The notes: generated by a model from the letters alone, not told the origin. DNA of 64,000 bases from Pseudanabaena sp. PCC 6802 (GCF_000332175.1 NZ_KB235914.1:317966-381965), one strand, 5' to 3'; shown: positions 45,871 to 55,307, counted from the stretch's first letter. Program-made: numbers and translations.

Positions 45871-46066
45871 CTTATCATTTTTTTTGACAACTCCTCTGTC
45901 TGAAGGCGAGGGGATTTTTGGCTCATCGGGACTGCTCAGGTAGCTTGCCCTTCCCAAAATTTACGGCGACGCGCTCCACCACTGTACGGCCATGTTGCGG
46001 GACGGCTTGTGCCACCGCTACATAGCAATTGGTTTCACAGCCGCATTCAGGGCATTCTATGGACAT
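45871..46066 (-). pseudogene. IS200/IS605-type tnpB remnant with right end
   Basis: From an ATG at 46066 a 47-residue frame reads SIECPECGCETNCYVAVAQAV and then ERVAVNFGKGKLPEQSR, the zinc-ribbon and tail pattern of TnpB proteins of the IS1341 type. The conserved R-D of that segment is replaced by C-Y, so the catalytic aspartate is gone. A CCTC...GAGG hairpin at about 45885-45905 looks like the element's right end. The rest of the transposase is absent. Confidence 0.6.
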
Positions 46067-46085
46067 GTTCAAATAATAGTTTTTT

Positions 46086-46122
46086 GCATTTTTGTGTACT
46101 GCAAGTAGGTACACAAAAATGC
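46086..46122. promoter_or_regulatory. Perfect 14-bp inverted repeat, possible HxlR operator
   Basis: GCATTTTTGTGTAC (46086-46099) and GTACACAAAAATGC (46109-46122) are exact inverted repeats around a 9-bp spacer. It lies 15 bp before the start of the HxlR remnant. HxlR regulators bind palindromes in their own promoter, so this may be the operator of a lost regulator; an IS end is the alternative. Confidence 0.45.
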
Positions 46123-46136
46123 TATACACGCAAATT

Positions 46137-46256
46137 ATGAATATAGCTGTACGAAAGAAGAACTATGTCCCGGATGTACGCCCCTATCTAGGGCAAGCCC
46201 TAGATTTGATTGCCAATAAGTGGCTCGTTGCCGATCTTTACGTTCTTTTAGTCTAA
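46137..46256 (+). pseudogene. Truncated HxlR-family regulator
   Basis: The frame from the ATG at 46137 gives 39 residues, including YVPDVRPYLGQALDLIANKW, the start of an HxlR winged helix (normally about 100-130 residues). It ends at a TAA in the middle of the first helices, and the rest is not found downstream. The dyad upstream is intact. Confidence 0.6.
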
Positions 46257-46328
46257 CTGAAAATTTATTGAAATTAAATAAGTTTTCCCTCAGTTTGGTA
46301 GTCTGAATACAGCCTTCTGCCTAATAGT

Positions 46329-47402
46329 ATGACCTTAACACCTGACCCGATGGAAACCCTCAAACGAAATGCCATGAACCTCATACTATGGGTTATGGCT
46401 TTAGGTGGAGCGATCGCTACGCTGCTTCATCTACTTGAGGGCAAAGCTCATATTATTTCATTAATACTTCCCCCCATGACAGTTGTCGTTTGCCTGAGTC
46501 TCTTGCTATATCTCAATAGATATCCTCAGGCTATCTATCTGACTATAAAGATCGCTTTGGGGTGGGTTGGTTTTATTATCTTATTCCCAGAATATTTTTT
46601 TGTAATTGAAGCCTTAGTAAATCCTGAGAAGAAGTTAGTTGATATTTTGCCACCGATTACTTCAGGAATTTTTCTCCTCACGACAGGCATGGTTGTTTTC
46701 TTGCGATCGCGCAGTTTAGCTAGACAAGCGTTTTGGCTTTGGATAGTTACTGCAGCCCCTGTTGTGAGCTACCTAATATTTCACCCCCAAGAATTACAAA
46801 CACCTAGAGGCATGGATCTAATGCTCGCGCTCGCACCTGCGATGGCAATTAATCTATCCTTAATTCTATTTTACGTGCGGCTACAGGATGCTATTGATAA
46901 ACTGCACATTGAGCGATTGCATCTTACAGAAGTTTCAGAGAAAGATGCGCTCACTAAAGCTTTTAATCGAGGAGCTGGAGAGCGCATATTGCAAACCCTT
47001 ATAGATAAACCAGCCCAGAAGATTGGTATTATTCTATGCGATATCGATCGCTTTAAACGAATTAACGATACATACGGTCATTTATTGGGCGATCGCGTGC
47101 TTCAGCTATTTGCTCAATCTTGTCAAGCTAACTTGCGCAAGCAGGATACTCTGATTCGGTGGGGTGGGGAGGAATTCCTGATCGTGGTGTCGGGAGATGA
47201 TGAGCTAGAGCTAGAACAATTGGCAGAACGTTTGCGGCAGGTCATCGCCGAGTTGCAAATACCCGAAGTGGGGAAAATCACCGCTTCATTTGGGATTGCC
47301 TCCCTAAGATCGCAGGAAAATATTATCGATCTATTCGCGCGGGCAGATCGGGCACTCTATCAAGCTAAAGGGCTAGGCAGAGATCGAGTAGTTCGATCGT
47401 AA
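46329..47402 (+). CDS. Membrane diguanylate cyclase (GGDEF)
   Basis: The protein has 357 residues with an ATG at 46329. About six membrane segments cover residues 20-185. The catalytic domain has GGEEF at 279-283, and the inhibitory I-site RKQD lies at 270-273 with the usual five-residue spacing. It makes cyclic di-GMP and should be subject to product inhibition. The membrane part carries no recognised sensor domain. It is followed directly by a repeat element at 47404. The PAS-EAL gene at 63024 is the opposing activity in this window. Confidence 0.9.
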   Translation: MTLTPDPMETLKRNAMNLILWVMALGGAIATLLHLLEGKAHIISLILPPMTVVVCLSLLLYLNRYPQAIYLTIKIALGWVGFIILFPEYFFVIEALVNPEKKLVDILPPITSGIFLLTTGMVVFLRSRSLARQAFWLWIVTAAPVVSYLIFHPQELQTPRGMDLMLALAPAMAINLSLILFYVRLQDAIDKLHIERLHLTEVSEKDALTKAFNRGAGERILQTLIDKPAQKIGIILCDIDRFKRINDTYGHLLGDRVLQLFAQSCQANLRKQDTLIRWGGEEFLIVVSGDDELELEQLAERLRQVIAELQIPEVGKITASFGIASLRSQENIIDLFARADRALYQAKGLGRDRVVRS

Positions 47403-47403
47403 A

Positions 47404-47517
47404 CATAGCCGTAGACAGATCTGTTAGGACAGGGGGTGTGGGGGCTGCGCCCCCACGCAGGGGTTCCACCCCTGCACCCCGTCCTAAGCCTATTGGCTAT
47501 AGCTATACTAAATTTAT
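47404..47517. repeat. Double-hairpin repeat element 5 (inverted orientation)
   Basis: The element reads CATAGCC...GTGGGGGCTGCGCCCCCAC...AGGGGTTCCACCCCT...GGCTATAGCTATA. It is the reverse orientation of the elements at 38298 and 39961. It begins two bases after the diguanylate cyclase stop. Confidence 0.85.
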
Positions 47518-47579
47518 GTTAAAAGTGGGCAATATTTAGTTAGGAATCCTACCACATAATTTTGCAGGGAGAATAACGT

Positions 47580-47996
47580 ATGTTGAATATGAGCGATCCT
47601 GGTCTTCAGACCGAGATGCAAACTGGGCTTCAGGAATTGATCGAATTGCAAGGGGCGCTAGTCGTAGCACTGGGGAATTGGCGAACTGGACAATGCTTTG
47701 CGCAGAAAGGGATAGACAGTCCCTTATTCCCAAACTCCAAAATCGGATTGGCTGTGGAAGGCAATGCTAAAGTCATTCAGGCAAAGATGCAGGTGTCCCA
47801 GGCATTAAAATTTCAAGATAAAATCGATCAAATCTTAATTGCTCTTTCTACTCAGTGGCACCTTATGAAGGTTCTGTCCGCAGATGGCTATTTTATCTAT
47901 ATAGCTCTAGAACGTGCATCCTCTAATATGGCAGTTGCTGGGTTCAAGTTAATGCAGCTTGACAAGAAGATATCGCCACTGCTCAACTCAAACTAG
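47580..47996 (+). CDS. Small soluble protein, possibly roadblock/LC7-like
   Basis: The protein has 138 residues with an ATG at 47580 behind AGGGAG. The pattern LQELIELQGALVVALGNWRTGQCFAQKG then IDQILIALSTQWHLMKVLSADGYFIYIALER suggests the alpha/beta fold of roadblock/LC7 proteins, which accompany small GTPases. The match is weak and rests on secondary-structure rhythm, so the family is uncertain. Confidence 0.6.
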   Translation: MLNMSDPGLQTEMQTGLQELIELQGALVVALGNWRTGQCFAQKGIDSPLFPNSKIGLAVEGNAKVIQAKMQVSQALKFQDKIDQILIALSTQWHLMKVLSADGYFIYIALERASSNMAVAGFKLMQLDKKISPLLNSN

Positions 47997-48023
47997 GATA
48001 GCAAACCTGCCATCTTCCTTCTA

Positions 48024-50552
48024 CTATGTATCAATGCTGATGGCAATTTGCTTGGGAGATAGATATGGATACGGAATTTTTCCTTCCTGCTCTAACTTCT
48101 TGTTTCTTTCATCAATTTCTGCTGCGATCGCATTGAGTTTTGCAATAAACGCAGCATGAATCTCGGGAAAGAAATTCTCCTCTAACGGTAAGTTAGATAA
48201 AGGATGCAGAGAAGGAGTTGAGAGGAAATTGGAGAAAAAGACTTGGAAGTGAGCAGTTGCAAAGCTTTGCAAGGAACTCAAAATGTATTCCATAGTAATA
48301 TCACCCTCAGTGTCGGGCATGCCCTTAAACATAACATTGGGACGACCGGGGACGTATCCCAGGTATTGATACTGGGAGAAATTGATCGCCGAATGTTGGG
48401 CGCTGGCAAGGAAGATAATGTTGGTGAGCGCGTTCGCAAGCAAGGCGCGGGTTGTAATAGTAGCAGGGAAGCCAGGTACTGCTGCCTTTTTGGGATCTGC
48501 GGTTTCGGCAGCCCAAGCCTGGATATCCTTATCTGCTGCTACAGCAGCGTCGTTTGCATATACAGTTTCTACGACATTACCAACATACTCAGATAAGGCA
48601 TTCCAAATCTTGAACCCATCGTCGCGGAAGAAGAAATCTTCTACCCCATCCGAGCCGCGTTCGTCGAATCCTCGTTCTAAAAGCTGTTGGGGGAAACTCA
48701 TCCCGAAAAAGTCCCATCGTCTCCATGCCTTCAGCACTAGCTGTAACCCTCCTGCGGTACCTGTGGCAAAGGTGCGATCGGTAAATGGAACGACTTTGGA
48801 GATCAGAGTTTGACGAGCTAGATAGTTAATCCCGATTGTCTCTTGTAAGTGAGGTTTCAGAAGCTTGGCTATAGGGTGCTCCGTGGGCAGGGCATTGTGA
48901 TGGCTGATGGCAAAGGGTTCTACCGCCAGATGCGTCAAGCCTAAATGAACGACAAACTGGTGAAATTGATCGTCAGCGCAGGCTGTATGAATCTTAGCGA
49001 ACAGATATCTATGCGGATGCGGAGAGCTAGGGGTGTAAACTTCATTTTGGCGGTCTTTATAACGGGTTAGCTGTATGCCGACCATATTCAGGCGAGACTT
49101 CCCACCTTCTAGTAGTTCTCGGAATACCAACACAAAGGGAGCGTAAAACACCTTACCTTGCAGTTGGGGAACGTCCTCTATATCGGCGTAATCCAGCATG
49201 AACAAGCGCTTTTCCGCGATCAACTCGGGAATTGTTTTCCCTTGAGCGGTCAGACTGAGCATATCCTTCGGGATCGCCGCTGCGTCTTTGCAAAGGGTAA
49301 TGTACATCGGGTTTACCCCTTGAATCATTTGGCGACAGAATTCGACATCATCTTGCCAAATTTTGGGGATTTGGATGGGAGAGGTAATCCATTTATCATA
49401 ATATGCTGTCCAGGGATCTCCGCCTGCTTGAACGGTTTGCTGCAACCTTTGAAAAAATCCGATCTCGGAATAAACATACTCGGCAATCCGCTTGGCAAAT
49501 AATCCCAACTTTTCGGGAGGAAGTTCCTGTGTAGGCGGTAAACCCTTAACCAGGGGAGGGAATTCTTCTAGGGGTAGATCGGGTGCATCCGTACGACGGG
49601 GATATTTCAGATATTCATACTTTTGTGCTTCTCCCAATGCCTGCTGCTGCATTATTAGTAGAGCCTGGTTTTTGATATCTTCCAGTACTTGCTGCAAGAA
49701 AGCGATCGCTTCTTCCTGCTCCATTTCTTTTGTGGGTGGAAGTTTCTTTCCCGAGTCAAGCGTTAGCAGTAAAGAGATGGTGACCTCTCCTCGATCTACA
49801 CCCTGGAGCTTGAGAGTTTTTCTCGCTGACTGCCCGGACACCAGATCGTGGATATCAACTTCGGCATGACCCATAAAATCATCCCTACCGAGTTTTGCAT
49901 CCCAAACGCTCAACTGGAGCTTACCTTCAGTAGTTTTGACATCAAAAGAGAACTTCTCTTGCCATAGTGGATCGAAGGTGTTAAGGCAGACCTTTGATTT
50001 TTGTGGTTTCCCTTCATCAAAAACAATTACGACGTAAGGATCGGTAAAGAACAAACTAGTTTTGATCAGATCGATCCCGTTAATCAGATCGACTTCTAGT
50101 TTTCCTATATTTGGATGGAAATAGCTATCTAGAAAAGCGATCGCTTCGGTGTAGGCTTGTTCCTGAGCGCTGGCGATCGTGCCAGCAAAAGCTTGACTGA
50201 CATCAACTACAGCCGACCAATGGACGACAGTTTCCGTGTCACTTTTGGCAGACATTTCTACCGTGGTCAGGATGCTCTTCAGTGTGGGTATAGAAGGTTT
50301 TGCTTCCACCAGGGAATACTGCAATACGTGTTTCTGGTCGTCGCGAACTTCGAGACGCTCTTTGTATTCTCGTCCCGTGAGAGTTTTAAAAGAGCGCACA
50401 GCTCCTACTTCGTCTTTGCCAGGCGGTTCGAGTTGCATCCATTCATAAATGTGCCACCACTTCATGTTTTCTGCACCAAATGGTTTGAATAGCTCCCATA
50501 CCTTATCAATTGGTGCTCGGACGATACCCGTGACATTTGCGCCACTGCTCAT
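48024..50552 (-). CDS. Lipoxygenase with N-terminal SRPBCC and C2 domains
   Basis: The protein has 842 residues with an ATG at 50552 behind GGAG. Residues 1-150 form an SRPBCC (Bet v1-like) domain, residues about 150-275 a C2 domain (LEVDLINGIDLIK, SDPYVV-like, FMGHAEVDIHDL), and the rest a lipoxygenase. Iron ligands are in place: H536 and H541 (HxxxxH), H720 and N724 (QHSAIN). The protein ends ISIDT: the usual C-terminal isoleucine (I840) is followed by D841 and T842, so the terminal carboxylate ligand is displaced. It should oxygenate polyunsaturated fatty acids to hydroperoxides if this end still works. It is the last gene of a three-gene operon. Confidence 0.88.
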   Translation of the reverse strand: MSSGANVTGIVRAPIDKVWELFKPFGAENMKWWHIYEWMQLEPPGKDEVGAVRSFKTLTGREYKERLEVRDDQKHVLQYSLVEAKPSIPTLKSILTTVEMSAKSDTETVVHWSAVVDVSQAFAGTIASAQEQAYTEAIAFLDSYFHPNIGKLEVDLINGIDLIKTSLFFTDPYVVIVFDEGKPQKSKVCLNTFDPLWQEKFSFDVKTTEGKLQLSVWDAKLGRDDFMGHAEVDIHDLVSGQSARKTLKLQGVDRGEVTISLLLTLDSGKKLPPTKEMEQEEAIAFLQQVLEDIKNQALLIMQQQALGEAQKYEYLKYPRRTDAPDLPLEEFPPLVKGLPPTQELPPEKLGLFAKRIAEYVYSEIGFFQRLQQTVQAGGDPWTAYYDKWITSPIQIPKIWQDDVEFCRQMIQGVNPMYITLCKDAAAIPKDMLSLTAQGKTIPELIAEKRLFMLDYADIEDVPQLQGKVFYAPFVLVFRELLEGGKSRLNMVGIQLTRYKDRQNEVYTPSSPHPHRYLFAKIHTACADDQFHQFVVHLGLTHLAVEPFAISHHNALPTEHPIAKLLKPHLQETIGINYLARQTLISKVVPFTDRTFATGTAGGLQLVLKAWRRWDFFGMSFPQQLLERGFDERGSDGVEDFFFRDDGFKIWNALSEYVGNVVETVYANDAAVAADKDIQAWAAETADPKKAAVPGFPATITTRALLANALTNIIFLASAQHSAINFSQYQYLGYVPGRPNVMFKGMPDTEGDITMEYILSSLQSFATAHFQVFFSNFLSTPSLHPLSNLPLEENFFPEIHAAFIAKLNAIAAEIDERNKKLEQEGKIPYPYLSPKQIAISIDT

Positions 50553-50573
50553 GATATTTCTCCGTAATTTGTG

Positions 50574-51488
50574 CTAATTTTGGTTGTCAAATTTCGATTT
50601 AAACCATGCAAGCCGTGCATTGAAAATCTGCTCGATTTCTGTTTTGACTTGCTGGGGATCCTTGCCTTCAACTGGGATGAAGACATTGTCATAGTTTACC
50701 CGTGTAGTAGTTGCATTTATCTCAGTCAGCTTAACCGTACCCCTGTAAAGGCTCACGGGCATCCCACTCTGAGTCACCTGGTAGACTAACGTACGCTCGG
50801 CATCGTCAGCGTATACGAGTTGCTCTTCCACAACATTATTATTTGGGAAGATAACCTGCCTCCCACCCACAGGAATCATTTTGACATCTGTGGCGTACTG
50901 AACCCATGAAACATCTTCCCAATTGCCAATCACACTCCATAGCTTAGCGGCTGGGCAGTTAACCTCAAGCTCAAAAGCACATCTCAAACCATCCCTCTGA
51001 AGCACGAAATTATTAATTTCATCAATCCGCTGCGGTTGTGCCGAGTTAGCCATAACCTGGAGGATCTGAGTTCGCTCTTCCGGAGTCTTACCCTGTAGGG
51101 CAAAGTCAATAGTCAGCGTTACTTCTGCACCCTTTTCTGCCTCATAAACCCTGGCAGTAGCCTCATAGAACGAAAAGACTGAATTGGGTTCCGGTATATT
51201 GATTTTCCAAATATATTTTTCGGTATCGTAAACGATGAGGGTTTCCCTTGTTACAGAACCTTTATACTCAAATCGAATAGTAGCTCCTACACCATTAGTT
51301 GGCTTGCCATTGTCAGTTTCCAGGGTTGTGTCTGGATGTCCGCTGAGAGCTTGCTGTAAGGTGAGATAGTCTTCAAAAGCAGACCAAAATTGCTTTGCTG
51401 ATAGTGAGGTTGGGTTAATACTCGTGCGAGAGAGGCGCTTCCCAGAAGCTAGGTACTCAACTTCAACAGGGCTGAAGAATAAAGGCAT
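50574..51488 (-). CDS. Double SRPBCC-domain protein of the lipoxygenase operon
   Basis: The protein has 304 residues with an ATG at 51488. Two SRPBCC (START-like) domains follow one another: about residues 1-160 (KQFWSAFEDY, ATIRFEYKGSVTRETLIVYD) and 170-304 (ELEVNCPAAKLWSVIGNWEDVSWV, LVYADDAERTLVYQVTQSG). Such domains bind hydrophobic ligands; several are cyclases or lipid carriers. It lies 21 bp upstream of the lipoxygenase gene and 41 bp after the hydrolase gene, so a role in passing or converting the lipid product is likely but inferred. No HIP1 octamer is seen in this gene. Confidence 0.8.
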   Translation of the reverse strand: MPLFFSPVEVEYLASGKRLSRTSINPTSLSAKQFWSAFEDYLTLQQALSGHPDTTLETDNGKPTNGVGATIRFEYKGSVTRETLIVYDTEKYIWKINIPEPNSVFSFYEATARVYEAEKGAEVTLTIDFALQGKTPEERTQILQVMANSAQPQRIDEINNFVLQRDGLRCAFELEVNCPAAKLWSVIGNWEDVSWVQYATDVKMIPVGGRQVIFPNNNVVEEQLVYADDAERTLVYQVTQSGMPVSLYRGTVKLTEINATTTRVNYDNVFIPVEGKDPQQVKTEIEQIFNARLAWFKSKFDNQN

Positions 51489-51529
51489 GATAATTTCTCC
51501 TTATATTATAACTTTAACAATGTTGTTCC

Positions 51530-52447
51530 CTATGCTGAAGTCGAGCTAATGATAACCTCAGCTATTTTCTTCGCTACTGCTTGACTGTGCCAGTAGCTGT
51601 CGTGTGCCGTGCCGCCTTGCACTAAAGCTAGTGGATTCTGACTAATTAATCTAAACAAGAGGCTGGTATTACGAGTGATGATATCTTCCACTTCAATAAA
51701 CTCACCGCTGCTATCGACCAGATCGGGTAGTAAGGGCGCGATGGGGAAGGCGATCGGATCGCCTGGATTCACAAAATTACACCAGCGTAATTTCTTGCCG
51801 CCGCGTTCTTCTTTGAGCCTGGATAATAGTTCCTCTAAGTGAGGAGTGATGTCATGGGTCGATCCATCTACATTCATCAGATAGAACAAAACAATTGGCG
51901 AACCCATTGTATAAACGCTGGCTAAGCGTATACCTTCATGCCGATTAGATCCCATGCCAAAAATTGCATTCCTGACTGTTTCAATGAAGGCATGACCGGG
52001 TGCATCCTCTTCATCCCAACGATCGGAAAATAACGCATCGAATAGAATAATCGTACCCCAACTGTGGGTGACCAGGTGCAATCGGTCTTCTTTTGCGTTG
52101 CATTTTGTGAGGGCTTGTATTGCCTGCTCGCTAATGGCCTTTATTACGGCAGACCCCATGTGACGGCTGATATAGAGAGCAGCGTCACCGACAAAGCGCA
52201 GCATCGGCCCCTCGCGAAATTTTCTAAACCATACCCTGTCCCAGACCGGAGACTTTTGTATTTGCTTCAACAGGCGATCGTCAGCTTTTTCTCCTATGTC
52301 ACCCCAGTAGAGAGGAACGAATCTAACTGTGCGATTGGGTTCTAAATGCTGTTTGAGCATTTGAGTCATTTCATCGGCGTAGTTGGGTTGAACTCCCTCA
52401 TCACGGGTATTCAAGCCGTGGATGAATATAATATAGTCGGTTGCCAT
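51530..52447 (-). CDS. Alpha/beta hydrolase (lipase-like), first gene of the lipoxygenase operon
   Basis: The protein has 305 residues with an ATG at 52447. It shows an oxyanion HGLN at 10-13 and the nucleophile elbow THSWGT with S129. A late His (HDSYWHSQ near residue 283) can complete the triad, with an acid in between. It has no signal peptide, so it is cytoplasmic. As the first gene before a double SRPBCC protein and a lipoxygenase, it could release fatty acid from membrane lipid. That role is inference; proteins of this build also act on other esters. Confidence 0.8.
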   Translation of the reverse strand: MATDYIIFIHGLNTRDEGVQPNYADEMTQMLKQHLEPNRTVRFVPLYWGDIGEKADDRLLKQIQKSPVWDRVWFRKFREGPMLRFVGDAALYISRHMGSAVIKAISEQAIQALTKCNAKEDRLHLVTHSWGTIILFDALFSDRWDEEDAPGHAFIETVRNAIFGMGSNRHEGIRLASVYTMGSPIVLFYLMNVDGSTHDITPHLEELLSRLKEERGGKKLRWCNFVNPGDPIAFPIAPLLPDLVDSSGEFIEVEDIITRNTSLLFRLISQNPLALVQGGTAHDSYWHSQAVAKKIAEVIISSTSA

Positions 52448-52630
52448 ATTAGCGTCTCGTGTTTATTTCAGAAGGAATCTATTGATTGTCTACCTGAAAA
52501 TTCAAACTCAGCAAAACAGTCTGAAAGATGCAATTTCAACTCTCATTTAAGACTGATGTCTTTCTCTCCTGAGCGTTAGGAATGCGATTTCAGAGACAAG
52601 AGTGAAATATCGCAATCAAATCTCTGGCTT

Positions 52631-52745
52631 TATAGCGCTTTTCAATTGAGAAAGGGATTTAGTTTATGGGGTGAAGTGGTTCCACCCTTTCTTGGGGGCA
52701 ACGCCCCCACCCCCCCTTCTATTTTTCATCTAAAAACCGCTATAG
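52631..52745. repeat. Double-hairpin repeat element 6 (TATAGCG ends)
   Basis: Left end TATAGCGCTTTTCAATTGAG, inner GGTTCCACC and GGGGGCAACGCCCCC, right end AAAAACCGCTATA. It belongs to the TATAGCGG subfamily. Confidence 0.85.
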
Positions 52746-52827
52746 TAAAAAAGCCTGCTTAGGCATCATCAACCTGCTTGAAAGATATCTAGAGCGTGTA
52801 GGGACTAGATGTTGTCACTGTATAGAT

Positions 52828-52914
52828 TTACAAAATAACATTAAGTATTTTGCATTGTAATTTTTTACAAATATTTCTTACAAAGATCTTACACACCTAT
52901 TCTAATTTCTTACA
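52828..52914. promoter_or_regulatory. Cluster of TTACA words
   Basis: TTACA occurs at 52828, 52865, 52878, 52889 and 52910, with steps of 13, 11 and 21 bp for the last four. RpaB-type HLR1 sites are pairs of TTACA-like words; these spacings are only approximate matches. Regulation by light stress is therefore a guess. Confidence 0.3.
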
Positions 52915-53258
52915 CAGCCCCCTATCATACTAAGCATAAATCTCCCAGATAAATATTATTCTGACAAAATCTTAACTATGTCTTTAGATATCTCTTTTAC
53001 CTTTATAACTTTTATAAATTTACAATTTGATTCTTCAACTACGATTTTGAAGCACAACTTAAACGTAGCTCGTGTTACCAAATTGTGTCAATGGTAAAAA
53101 GTGTGAAAATGTGTGATCCTTGTGCGATCCTTGTGTGACCTAATGTTGACCTGGTTATATCCCCACTGTCGCATTGAATCTTGCCACGTAGACACTGGTG
53201 TGTTTCCCATATCTATACTTGATGGTGGTTTACTACGATCGAGTGCTTCGATCTAACT

Positions 53259-54236
53259 CTATCCCGATGCGTTTTTATACAATGATGCCACGTATTGTTC
53301 GTAGCCGTTGTAGATTAGCGTACGCCGTCTTTCACCCGTACCTAGCATGTGCTCTGTGGATTGAGACCAACGGGGATGCGGCACGTTGGGATTGACATTA
53401 GCCTGAAAGTCATACTCGTTACTGACCAGCGTGTTCCAGAAAGTAGCTGGTTGCGTATCCGTGAACTCAATGCGATCGATTGACTTGATACTCTTAAATC
53501 CATACTTCCACGGCACGACCAGGCGGATTGGCGCGCCATGCTGCTTGGGTAGTTCGTGCCCGTAGATACCCACAACCAGTAAGGTAAGCTCGTTCATGGC
53601 TTCCGCCATCGTCAAGCCCTCCGTGTACGGCCAGGGATAGCTTTGCAAATCCTGGCGCGGTACCTCCTTGGGGCGAAAGAATGTCGTCATTTTCACAAAC
53701 TTTGCCTGCGGCTTTGGTTCGACTAGATCGATTAATGCTTTCATCGGAAACCCAATCCAGGGAACCGCCATTGCCCAAGTTTCTACACAACGATGTCGGT
53801 AGAGGCGCTCTTCGATAGGCATTTTGCGAATCAGATCCTCGATCGCAATTTTCTGTGGTTTTGCCACCAAACCGGATATTTCAACCGTCCAGGGCGAAGT
53901 TTGCCATCCGTCAACGTACCGCCAAACCTCCTTGCCGCCGCTGAATTCGTAAAAGTTGTTGTATGTAGCAGCAACATACTCCTCCGTCAGGGGGCGATCG
54001 AGGCTAAAGCGAGGGTTACGGGTGGCGCTAATTGGCTGGAGATTTGCTTGCTTCAAGTTTTGCTGTACTGCCTCTTTTCTCTCAGTGCCTGAGGTACAGC
54101 CAGAGATGAGGGTCACAGCACCAATGCTTGCTAGACCCAGCTTTTGCACGAATCTACGACGATTCATAAACACCGACTCTGGCGTAGCTTCATTTTCTGG
54201 GATAAACCAGTCGGGCAGAATTTTGAACAAAACCAT
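53259..54236 (-). CDS. msrP: MsrP-type molybdopterin protein-methionine-sulfoxide reductase
   Basis: The protein has 325 residues with an ATG at 54236. The leader carries RRRF at residues 26-29 followed by a hydrophobic stretch and GC, a twin-arginine signal. The Moco-binding cysteine is C150 (YRHRCVETWAM). Segments such as PWKYGFKSIKSIDRIEF are typical of MsrP/YedY. It repairs oxidised methionine outside the cytoplasm. The guanylyltransferase MobA may not be needed, since MsrP uses molybdopterin without GMP. No msrQ gene is adjacent. Confidence 0.92.
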   Translation of the reverse strand: MVLFKILPDWFIPENEATPESVFMNRRRFVQKLGLASIGAVTLISGCTSGTERKEAVQQNLKQANLQPISATRNPRFSLDRPLTEEYVAATYNNFYEFSGGKEVWRYVDGWQTSPWTVEISGLVAKPQKIAIEDLIRKMPIEERLYRHRCVETWAMAVPWIGFPMKALIDLVEPKPQAKFVKMTTFFRPKEVPRQDLQSYPWPYTEGLTMAEAMNELTLLVVGIYGHELPKQHGAPIRLVVPWKYGFKSIKSIDRIEFTDTQPATFWNTLVSNEYDFQANVNPNVPHPRWSQSTEHMLGTGERRRTLIYNGYEQYVASLYKNASG

Positions 54237-54286
54237 AGGTAAAAACCGGCGATCGCTAATTCTAGTATGCCTGCAAAGCAGCCAAT

Positions 54287-54399
54287 TATCGCGTTTTTCA
54301 ATTGAGAACAGGTTTTATTGATGGGGTGAAGGGGTAGAACCCCTTCTTGGGGGCAACGCCCCCAACCCCCCTACTCTTTCCGATCTGAAAACCGCTATA
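54287..54399. repeat. Double-hairpin repeat element 7
   Basis: Left end TATCGCGTTTTTCAATTGAG, inner AGGGGTAGAACCCCT and GGGGGCAACGCCCCC, right end AAAACCGCTATA. It lies between msrP and the SH3-like gene. Confidence 0.85.
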
Positions 54400-54407
54400 T
54401 CGCCGTA

Positions 54408-55307
54408 TTATTTTAATGGAAAAGTCTGCGTTGGCGATGTGTAGGAAATGTCACTGCGATCGACCCAGCCAACTTTGCCATTCCAAGAGACTTTTTGCCA
54501 AGATACCCCACGAGCCTGCAAGCGCGTAACAAGCACGTTAGAACTTGAGAAAGTTGTATTGAGATCGAGCCGAACGCGCAGCGGTGAAGATGTATTGGAT
54601 GGCAATCGATCGCGCATTTGCTCTGGTTCCTCAACTAGATCCACTACCTCACGAGCATACAAAGACTGAATCACTTCTCCCTTCGCCTCAGGAGTTTTAC
54701 GCATAACTACGCAATCCCCTACAGTCCAGGCAATTCCTTTCCCCACAAAAACTTCTCGTTCGGGATGCCAAACTGAAACGGGCTTCCCATCTTGATACAT
54801 CACACCTAGATCGTAGATCCGACTCCAGCGATCCAAATCTCTGACTCCGGCATAAACGGCTTTGACTCGATCTGGCTTCATCAACAGCAACACTGTTTCG
54901 CTAGAAGTATCATCGCCAGCATAAAACACAAAATCTAAACTACCATCAGGATCTAAGTAACGTGCTTCACTAATATTGTGAACCCAATAGGTTGATAGAT
55001 TATTACCAATTTTGTATTCAAATATGGTCGATCGCTTTCCCTGTCGTTCCAATTGGAAATTCACAAACACGTTCTTTGTCACCCGTTCGGACTTCGGACT
55101 TGTTGGGCATTGCTGTCGCTCGATAACCGGGCGATCGAACTGTGTTTTATAAATTTTCTCAAGTCCAGGTGCGTCCCGATCGAAGTCCATCATCAGAACT
55201 AGTTCTGGAGCAGCAGAGTTCGATCTTTGCGCGGTCGTGGATGGAGCGATCGCAAGTGCTGCACAACTAACTGAAACAATGCCTAAAACTGCGATTGTTG
55301 ATTTCAT
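54408..55307 (-). CDS. Secreted protein with C-terminal SH3-like domain
   Basis: The protein has 299 residues. A signal peptide covers about residues 1-27 (IAVLGIVSVSCAALAIAPSTTA). The middle is strand-rich without a known motif (IFEYKIGNNLSTYWVHNISEARYLD). The last 70 residues (LRVRLDLNTTFSSSNVLVTRLQARGVSW...VSWNGKVGWV) form an SH3b-like repeat as in wall-binding proteins. Cell-envelope location is likely; function is unknown. Confidence 0.75.
   Translation of the reverse strand: MKSTIAVLGIVSVSCAALAIAPSTTAQRSNSAAPELVLMMDFDRDAPGLEKIYKTQFDRPVIERQQCPTSPKSERVTKNVFVNFQLERQGKRSTIFEYKIGNNLSTYWVHNISEARYLDPDGSLDFVFYAGDDTSSETVLLLMKPDRVKAVYAGVRDLDRWSRIYDLGVMYQDGKPVSVWHPEREVFVGKGIAWTVGDCVVMRKTPEAKGEVIQSLYAREVVDLVEEPEQMRDRLPSNTSSPLRVRLDLNTTFSSSNVLVTRLQARGVSWQKVSWNGKVGWVDRSDISYTSPTQTFPLK

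Follow-up and report, generated by a model that had tools for sequence, protein, structure and literature searches.

Bacterial lipoxygenases are rare, and the supply of their lipids, their targeting to membranes and the steps downstream of them are mostly obscure. The question raised by the locus described here is whether an alpha/beta hydrolase (HYD), a two-domain SRPBCC (START-like) protein (SRP2) and a SRPBCC-C2-lipoxygenase (LOX), encoded side by side in Pseudanabaena sp. PCC 6802, act together on membrane lipids.

Architecture of the gene trio

ORF calling showed that three adjacent minus-strand ORFs, separated by 21 and 41 bp, fill positions 48024-52447 of the analysed stretch of DNA (64,000 nt, hereafter the window; Table 1). 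Their co-transcription is likely. The gene downstream (47580-47996) is convergent, and the ~800 bp upstream are free of listed long ORFs. Promoter and terminator scans gave fewer matches than in shuffled sequences, an Rfam scan of 46000-55000 recovered no RNA element, and no NCBIfam profile matched HYD, SRP2 or LOX. The layout read by the initial annotation was fully recovered: the ORF coordinates agree with three same-strand genes so spaced, the THSWGT motif of the hydrolase lies at residues 127-132, the two START-like domains of the middle gene correspond to two stretches matched by Polyketide_cyc2 (E 5e-17), and Pfam places both a SRPBCC and a C2 domain in LOX.

Table 1. Positions of the genes, domains and candidate functional residues of the trio (window coordinates), and of the matching locus in genome G228
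Feature	Position	Strand	Basis
HYD, alpha/beta hydrolase, 305 aa, DDHD/phospholipase-A1-like	51530..52447	(-)	ORF, fold and family comparison
HYD S129, candidate triad	52061-52063	(-)	invariant in 12 family members
HYD D230, candidate triad	51758-51760	(-)	invariant in 12 family members
HYD H282, candidate triad	51602-51604	(-)	invariant in 12 family members
SRP2, two-domain SRPBCC (START-like) protein, 304 aa	50574..51488	(-)	Pfam Polyketide_cyc2
SRP2 domains, residues about 13-160 and 161-304	within 50574..51488	(-)	Pfam Polyketide_cyc2
LOX, SRPBCC-C2-lipoxygenase, 842 aa	48024..50552	(-)	Pfam; PDB lipoxygenases E 1.9e-56
LOX N-terminal SRPBCC domain, residues 10-139	50136..50525	(-)	Pfam Polyketide_cyc2 E 1e-8
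LOX C2 domain, residues 150-248	49809..50105	(-)	Pfam C2 (PF00168) E 1e-17
LOX catalytic domain, residues 397-842	48027..49364	(-)	alignment to human 5-LOX and cyanobacterial LOX
LOX H531, predicted Fe ligand	48960-48962	(-)	5-LOX alignment
LOX H536, predicted Fe ligand	48945-48947	(-)	5-LOX alignment
LOX H720, predicted Fe ligand	48393-48395	(-)	5-LOX alignment
LOX N724, predicted Fe ligand	48381-48383	(-)	5-LOX alignment
LOX C-terminal Thr842	48027-48029	(-)	alignment
G228 three-gene locus	L025: 6912-7919, 8279-9202, 9568-12153		whole-genome search

Nothing in Pfam matched HYD above its cut-off; the DDHD family (PF02862) gave a sub-threshold hit (E 0.039, 14.6 bits vs a cut-off of 28.3) and was matched by 10 of the 12 HYD family members at E <= 1 (best E 8e-6). 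The AlphaFold model of HYD (pLDDT 78.6), compared with the whole PDB by Foldseek, was closest to the DDHD domains of Nir2 and Nir1 (E 3e-6, probability 1.00, TM 0.52-0.54), followed in the ranking by monoglyceride lipase. As the window protein stays under the Pfam cut-off, its relation to DDHD is one of resemblance and not of family membership. The invariant residues of the candidate triad would comprise a Ser nucleophile, set in the lipase motif, with an Asp and a His. The same genome encodes a HYD paralogue (43% identity; L065 7748-9965, C5:2937747) whose neighbours are another alpha/beta hydrolase-like ORF and an ORF of 139 aa, with no LOX among them.

SRP2 reached 62.9 bits against Polyketide_cyc2 (PF10604, cut-off 27.4), and solved SRPBCC proteins match it in profile search (3cnw, E 6e-7). 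We set aside its origin as a recent duplicate of the SRPBCC domain in LOX, as the similarity of the two is only marginal (20%, E 0.05).

LOX itself is a clear member of the Pfam Lipoxygenase family (PF00305; E 4.3e-67, 227.5 bits vs a cut-off of 23.6), with an N-terminus scoring 35.9 bits against PF10604 (cut-off 27.4) and a C2 domain scoring 64.5 bits (cut-off 22). The C2 domain takes the position held by PLAT in most eukaryotic LOXs; Pfam found no PLAT match in LOX, and the SRPBCC domain lies N-terminal to the LOX domain. Judged by eye, the C2 loop acids are kept only in part (TDPYV, VWDAKLGRDD) and the calcium-loop set is incomplete. The SRPBCC domain is modelled as strands with a long C-terminal helix (pLDDT mostly 70-85); arguments from the fold of LOX were otherwise set aside, as the model is too poor (pLDDT 48.6) and its Foldseek matches only repeat the LOX homology.

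Alignment of the five closest LOXs showed conservation of all four Fe-ligand side chains. Four of the seven cyanobacterial SRPBCC-LOXs described below (those of the window, G228, Oscillatoria and Symploca) end in Thr, where Ile is usual. On the alignment, Thr842 reads as a departure from the usual residue and not as loss of a ligand, the terminal carboxylate still being placed at the aligned end; the substitution could alter metal binding. The LOX part might thus have diverged towards an isomerase/lyase-like or lipid-binding role in which oxygenation is minor or lost, a reading that the terminal Thr in four of seven proteins would favour, as would the Met found in place of the first Fe-ligand His in two relatives (G449 and G513, the rest of the site being kept). 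We consider it quite unlikely for the window protein, as its clade retains the three His and the Asn, the Tolypothrix LOX keeps the C-terminal Ile, and Thr842 may be tolerated because the C-terminal ligand is the main-chain carboxylate. The host carries two more LOX-family genes (583 and 476 aa); in the product of the shorter (L028 4321-5751, C5) Gln replaces the first Fe-ligand His, and the later His, the Asn and the C-terminal Ile are kept.

The Coffa site is occupied by Gly (Gly574), as in 7/7 SRPBCC-LOXs, vs Ala in almost every other cyanobacterial LOX of the comparison. By the Coffa-Brash rule Gly at this site marks R-type LOXs, and R-type oxygenation is thus predicted for LOX.

Relatives and conserved neighbourhood

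A contig scan with one protein recovered three relative loci (Tolypothrix FACHB-123, Oscillatoria PCC 10802 and Symploca SIO2C1), and whole-genome searches added G228, G449 and G513. With that of the window, these make up a single clade of seven cyanobacterial SRPBCC-LOXs (97/97), separate from the remaining cyanobacterial LOXs of the tree, and the window LOX is placed in a five-member subclade (99/99). The exact three-gene order recurs in G228, a cyanobacterium of another family, and in Tolypothrix FACHB-123 SRP2 and the SRPBCC-C2-LOX make up one 1160-aa ORF. Directly downstream of LOX both of these genomes encode an aldo/keto reductase (81% identical to each other), which the window lacks at this place. 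The SRPBCC-LOXs of Symploca, G449 and G513 have no C2 domain; since Symploca falls inside the C2-bearing subclade, its protein has probably lost it. In G513 an N-terminal remnant of SRP2 (68% identity) adjoins the SRPBCC-LOX. The Met of the sister LOXs (L033 4452-6710 in G449; L034 433-2649 in G513) lies in a QVMQF motif, vs Q-x-HQF, with the other ligands and the C-terminal Ile intact.

Oscillatoria PCC 10802 has a frameshift near the start of its LOX gene (near L020 8125). Just upstream stands an ORF (L020 6902-7879) that joins the C-terminal part of SRP2 to an N-terminus resembling an ECF sigma factor, and patatin-like phospholipases flank the SRPBCC-C2-LOX on both sides (L020 1898-3073 and 10804-11958), one of them co-oriented with LOX and ~270 bp downstream of it. 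In G132, a one-strand cluster (L026 4959-10631) encodes a MIF-like tautomerase, a divergent LOX-like protein (668 aa) adjoined by a single SRPBCC domain (31% identity to SRP2), a small SnoaL-looking protein (unmatched in Pfam) and an alpha/beta hydrolase of 536 aa with a SHSLGT motif.

SRP2 was present in 3 of the 386 sampled cyanobacterial genomes, single-sequence and profile searches agreeing, and adjoins a LOX-family gene in all three. The Tolypothrix fusion, and the fact that every two-domain SRPBCC homologue found adjoins a LOX-family gene, show that the link between SRP2 and LOX is not due to chance. Searches of viral contigs found no relative; on plasmids SRP2 was not found and LOX had distant matches only.

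HYD is less tightly bound to this neighbourhood. Its family occurs in 20 of 292 cyanobacterial genomes (E <= 1e-15), mostly away from LOX: HYD adjoins LOX at only 2/7 loci, and nine further neighbourhoods of the family held no LOX or SRP2 match. Beside LOX at so few loci, it is the member whose place in the neighbourhood is least conserved, and its identity between genomes is lower as well (53% vs 71-72%). HYD could hence be an unrelated neighbour, SRP2 and LOX working together alone, as both its rarity beside LOX and its lower identity would allow. We hold this to be very unlikely: the genomes that share its position and order belong to different families, the two operon copies group as sisters in the family tree (support 96/97), and the place beside LOX is taken by other lipid hydrolases in Oscillatoria (patatin) and G132 (the 536-aa hydrolase). 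The trio is a rare yet real conserved neighbourhood; the possibility raised beforehand, that the genes are rarely adjacent in relatives, does not apply to the SRPBCC-LOX association and is only partly answered for HYD.

Among 38 genomes of the order, the SRPBCC-C2-LOX was found only in that of the window, vs LOX copies at 67-75% identity in distant cyanobacteria, which argues for horizontal spread or repeated loss. This patchy distribution is better evidence than the one first offered, a lack of HIP1 octamers in the two upstream genes taken as a hint of recent arrival. The absence is true (0 observed vs 3.2 expected in HYD and SRP2; Poisson p = 0.04); as a sign of recent arrival it is weak, as the p value is marginal, the neighbouring genes (47580-47996 and 53259-54236) are likewise free of HIP1, the LOX gene has three octamers, and the G+C of the trio equals that of the window. 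GC-rich palindromes flanking the operon on both sides (47440 and 52694) were rejected as borders of an element, since the window and the genome hold similar copies at other places. These dispersed repeats (GGGGGC-N3-GCCCCC beside GGGGTTCCACCCC) lie at 52630-52744, 54286-54399, 47440, 29570, 38337 and 40001 in the window, with more elsewhere in the genome, and at least two of them represent a ~115-bp element (83-84% identity).

A putative route from membrane lipid to oxylipin

We moderately favour the view that HYD, SRP2 and LOX form a membrane-lipid oxylipin module. The order of the genes, their domains and the conservation of both linkage and catalytic residues are established above, and from them we infer its activity, order of steps, substrate, stereochemistry and the role of SRP2. 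HYD would act on glycerolipids of the membrane and set free polyunsaturated acyl chains or lyso-lipids; LOX, brought to the membrane by its own C2 domain, would take up the acyl chain with the help of its SRPBCC domain and oxygenate it to a hydroperoxide, of R type if the Coffa-site prediction holds; SRP2 would dock on LOX and carry the product off or steer its further conversion (e.g., cleavage). The 11 FA_desaturase-family genes of the host make polyunsaturated fatty acids plausible. Phospholipase A1 activity is a property of DDHD1 and DDHD2 (PMC9031518), and the affinity of HYD to such proteins supports acyl release from membrane lipid. In the Pyropia enzyme PhLOX, deletion of the SRPBCC part abolished hydroperoxide-lyase activity and changed the kinetics (PMC11507377), which suggests that SRP2 may influence the fate of the product. 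The aldo/keto reductase beside LOX in G228 and Tolypothrix would be expected if carbonyl products arise. Release of a lipid followed by its oxygenation, as first proposed, is thus supported by the DDHD affinity, the Oscillatoria patatins and the Tolypothrix fusion; the cyclisation proposed with it is not, the PhLOX data pointing to an effect on hydroperoxide cleavage.

HYD fits equally well before or after oxygenation, and LOX might instead oxygenate chains that are still esterified, which HYD would then remove, in a form of lipid editing that serves remodelling or stress and yields no free signal. Membrane action of this kind is favoured by the C2 and START-like domains, and an algal plastid LOX reportedly acts on membrane lipids. 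We nevertheless consider such editing rather unlikely, as the separate SRP2 carrier and the aldo/keto reductase in two relatives suggest a soluble product. Within the favoured module we propose, tentatively, an operon-encoded, lipase-coupled bacterial oxylipin pathway in which stand-alone SRPBCC domains could process the hydroperoxide, or hand on the product, as partner of a LOX that is targeted by its C2 domain.

Relation to known lipoxygenase systems

SRPBCC-LOX fusions are known from red algae and from Shewanella violacea (SvLOX), and a bacterial origin has been proposed for them (PMC4319731, PMC11507377). PhLOX and PhLOX2 (Pyropia haitanensis), PpLOX (Porphyra purpurea) and SvLOX resemble the window LOX in carrying an N-terminal SRPBCC domain in the place of PLAT and a C-terminal LOX domain, and the two-beta-barrel N-terminus of PhLOX recalls a separate or fused SRP2 (PMC4319731, PMC11507377). 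The window differs from this type by the C2 domain between SRPBCC and LOX, the C-terminal Thr, the separate two-domain SRPBCC partner and the neighbouring lipase. Asn575, needed for the AOS activity of PhLOX (PMC4319731, PMC11507377), would be replaced by Thr523 (eight residues before the first Fe-ligand His), a place counted from the published numbering and not aligned; its equivalent is Ala in three relatives and Met in the sister clade.

Among cyanobacterial systems, the mini-LOX CspLOX2 of Cyanothece and the catalase/AOS-LOX fusions of Anabaena PCC 7120 and Acaryochloris marina share the coupling of LOX to a partner by fusion or operon, but lack SRPBCC and C2 domains, the fusion partner being a haem catalase-like enzyme (PMC11507377, PMC11719350). 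The other cyanobacterial LOXs compared are ~27-34% identical to the window LOX over the catalytic domain. The animal 5-, 8R- and 11R-lipoxygenases likewise place a membrane-targeting beta sandwich (a Ca-binding, C2-like PLAT) before the LOX domain, and human 5-LOX is the best PDB sequence match; the window LOX differs from them by a true C2 (PF00168) instead of PLAT, by its SRPBCC domain and by an identity of ~27%. HYD shares with the DDHD domains of the intracellular phospholipases A1 DDHD1/DDHD2 and of the PI-transfer proteins Nir1/Nir2 the fold match, a serine-hydrolase motif and a DDHD-like segment, but is a small, stand-alone bacterial protein of predicted function.

The initial annotation was aware of no described bacterial system with this exact composition. 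The SRPBCC-LOX fusion itself is known; what is new is a lipase and a separate SRPBCC partner beside a LOX that has C2 in the place of PLAT and unusual metal-site residues. The exact arrangement was not found in the open literature: among open full-text papers on lipoxygenase and SRPBCC the work on point concerned red algae, and titles and abstract beginnings of open full-text papers on LOX with C2/PLAT, or on LOX, cyanobacteria and operons, did not describe the trio.

The locus unites an enzyme resembling lipases, a partner that binds lipid and a LOX targeted to membranes in one genetic unit, so that the three steps can be tested together. SRP2 may be the free-standing equivalent of the two-barrel SRPBCC region in the red-algal LOXs, and among the relatives of the trio the metal site of lipoxygenase varies naturally. 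If the proposed pathway is true, it would represent a bacterial counterpart of the eicosanoid-type machinery (phospholipase, membrane-targeted 5-LOX and lipid carrier), built around an unusual metal site that is Thr-terminal here and has Met for His in the sister clade.
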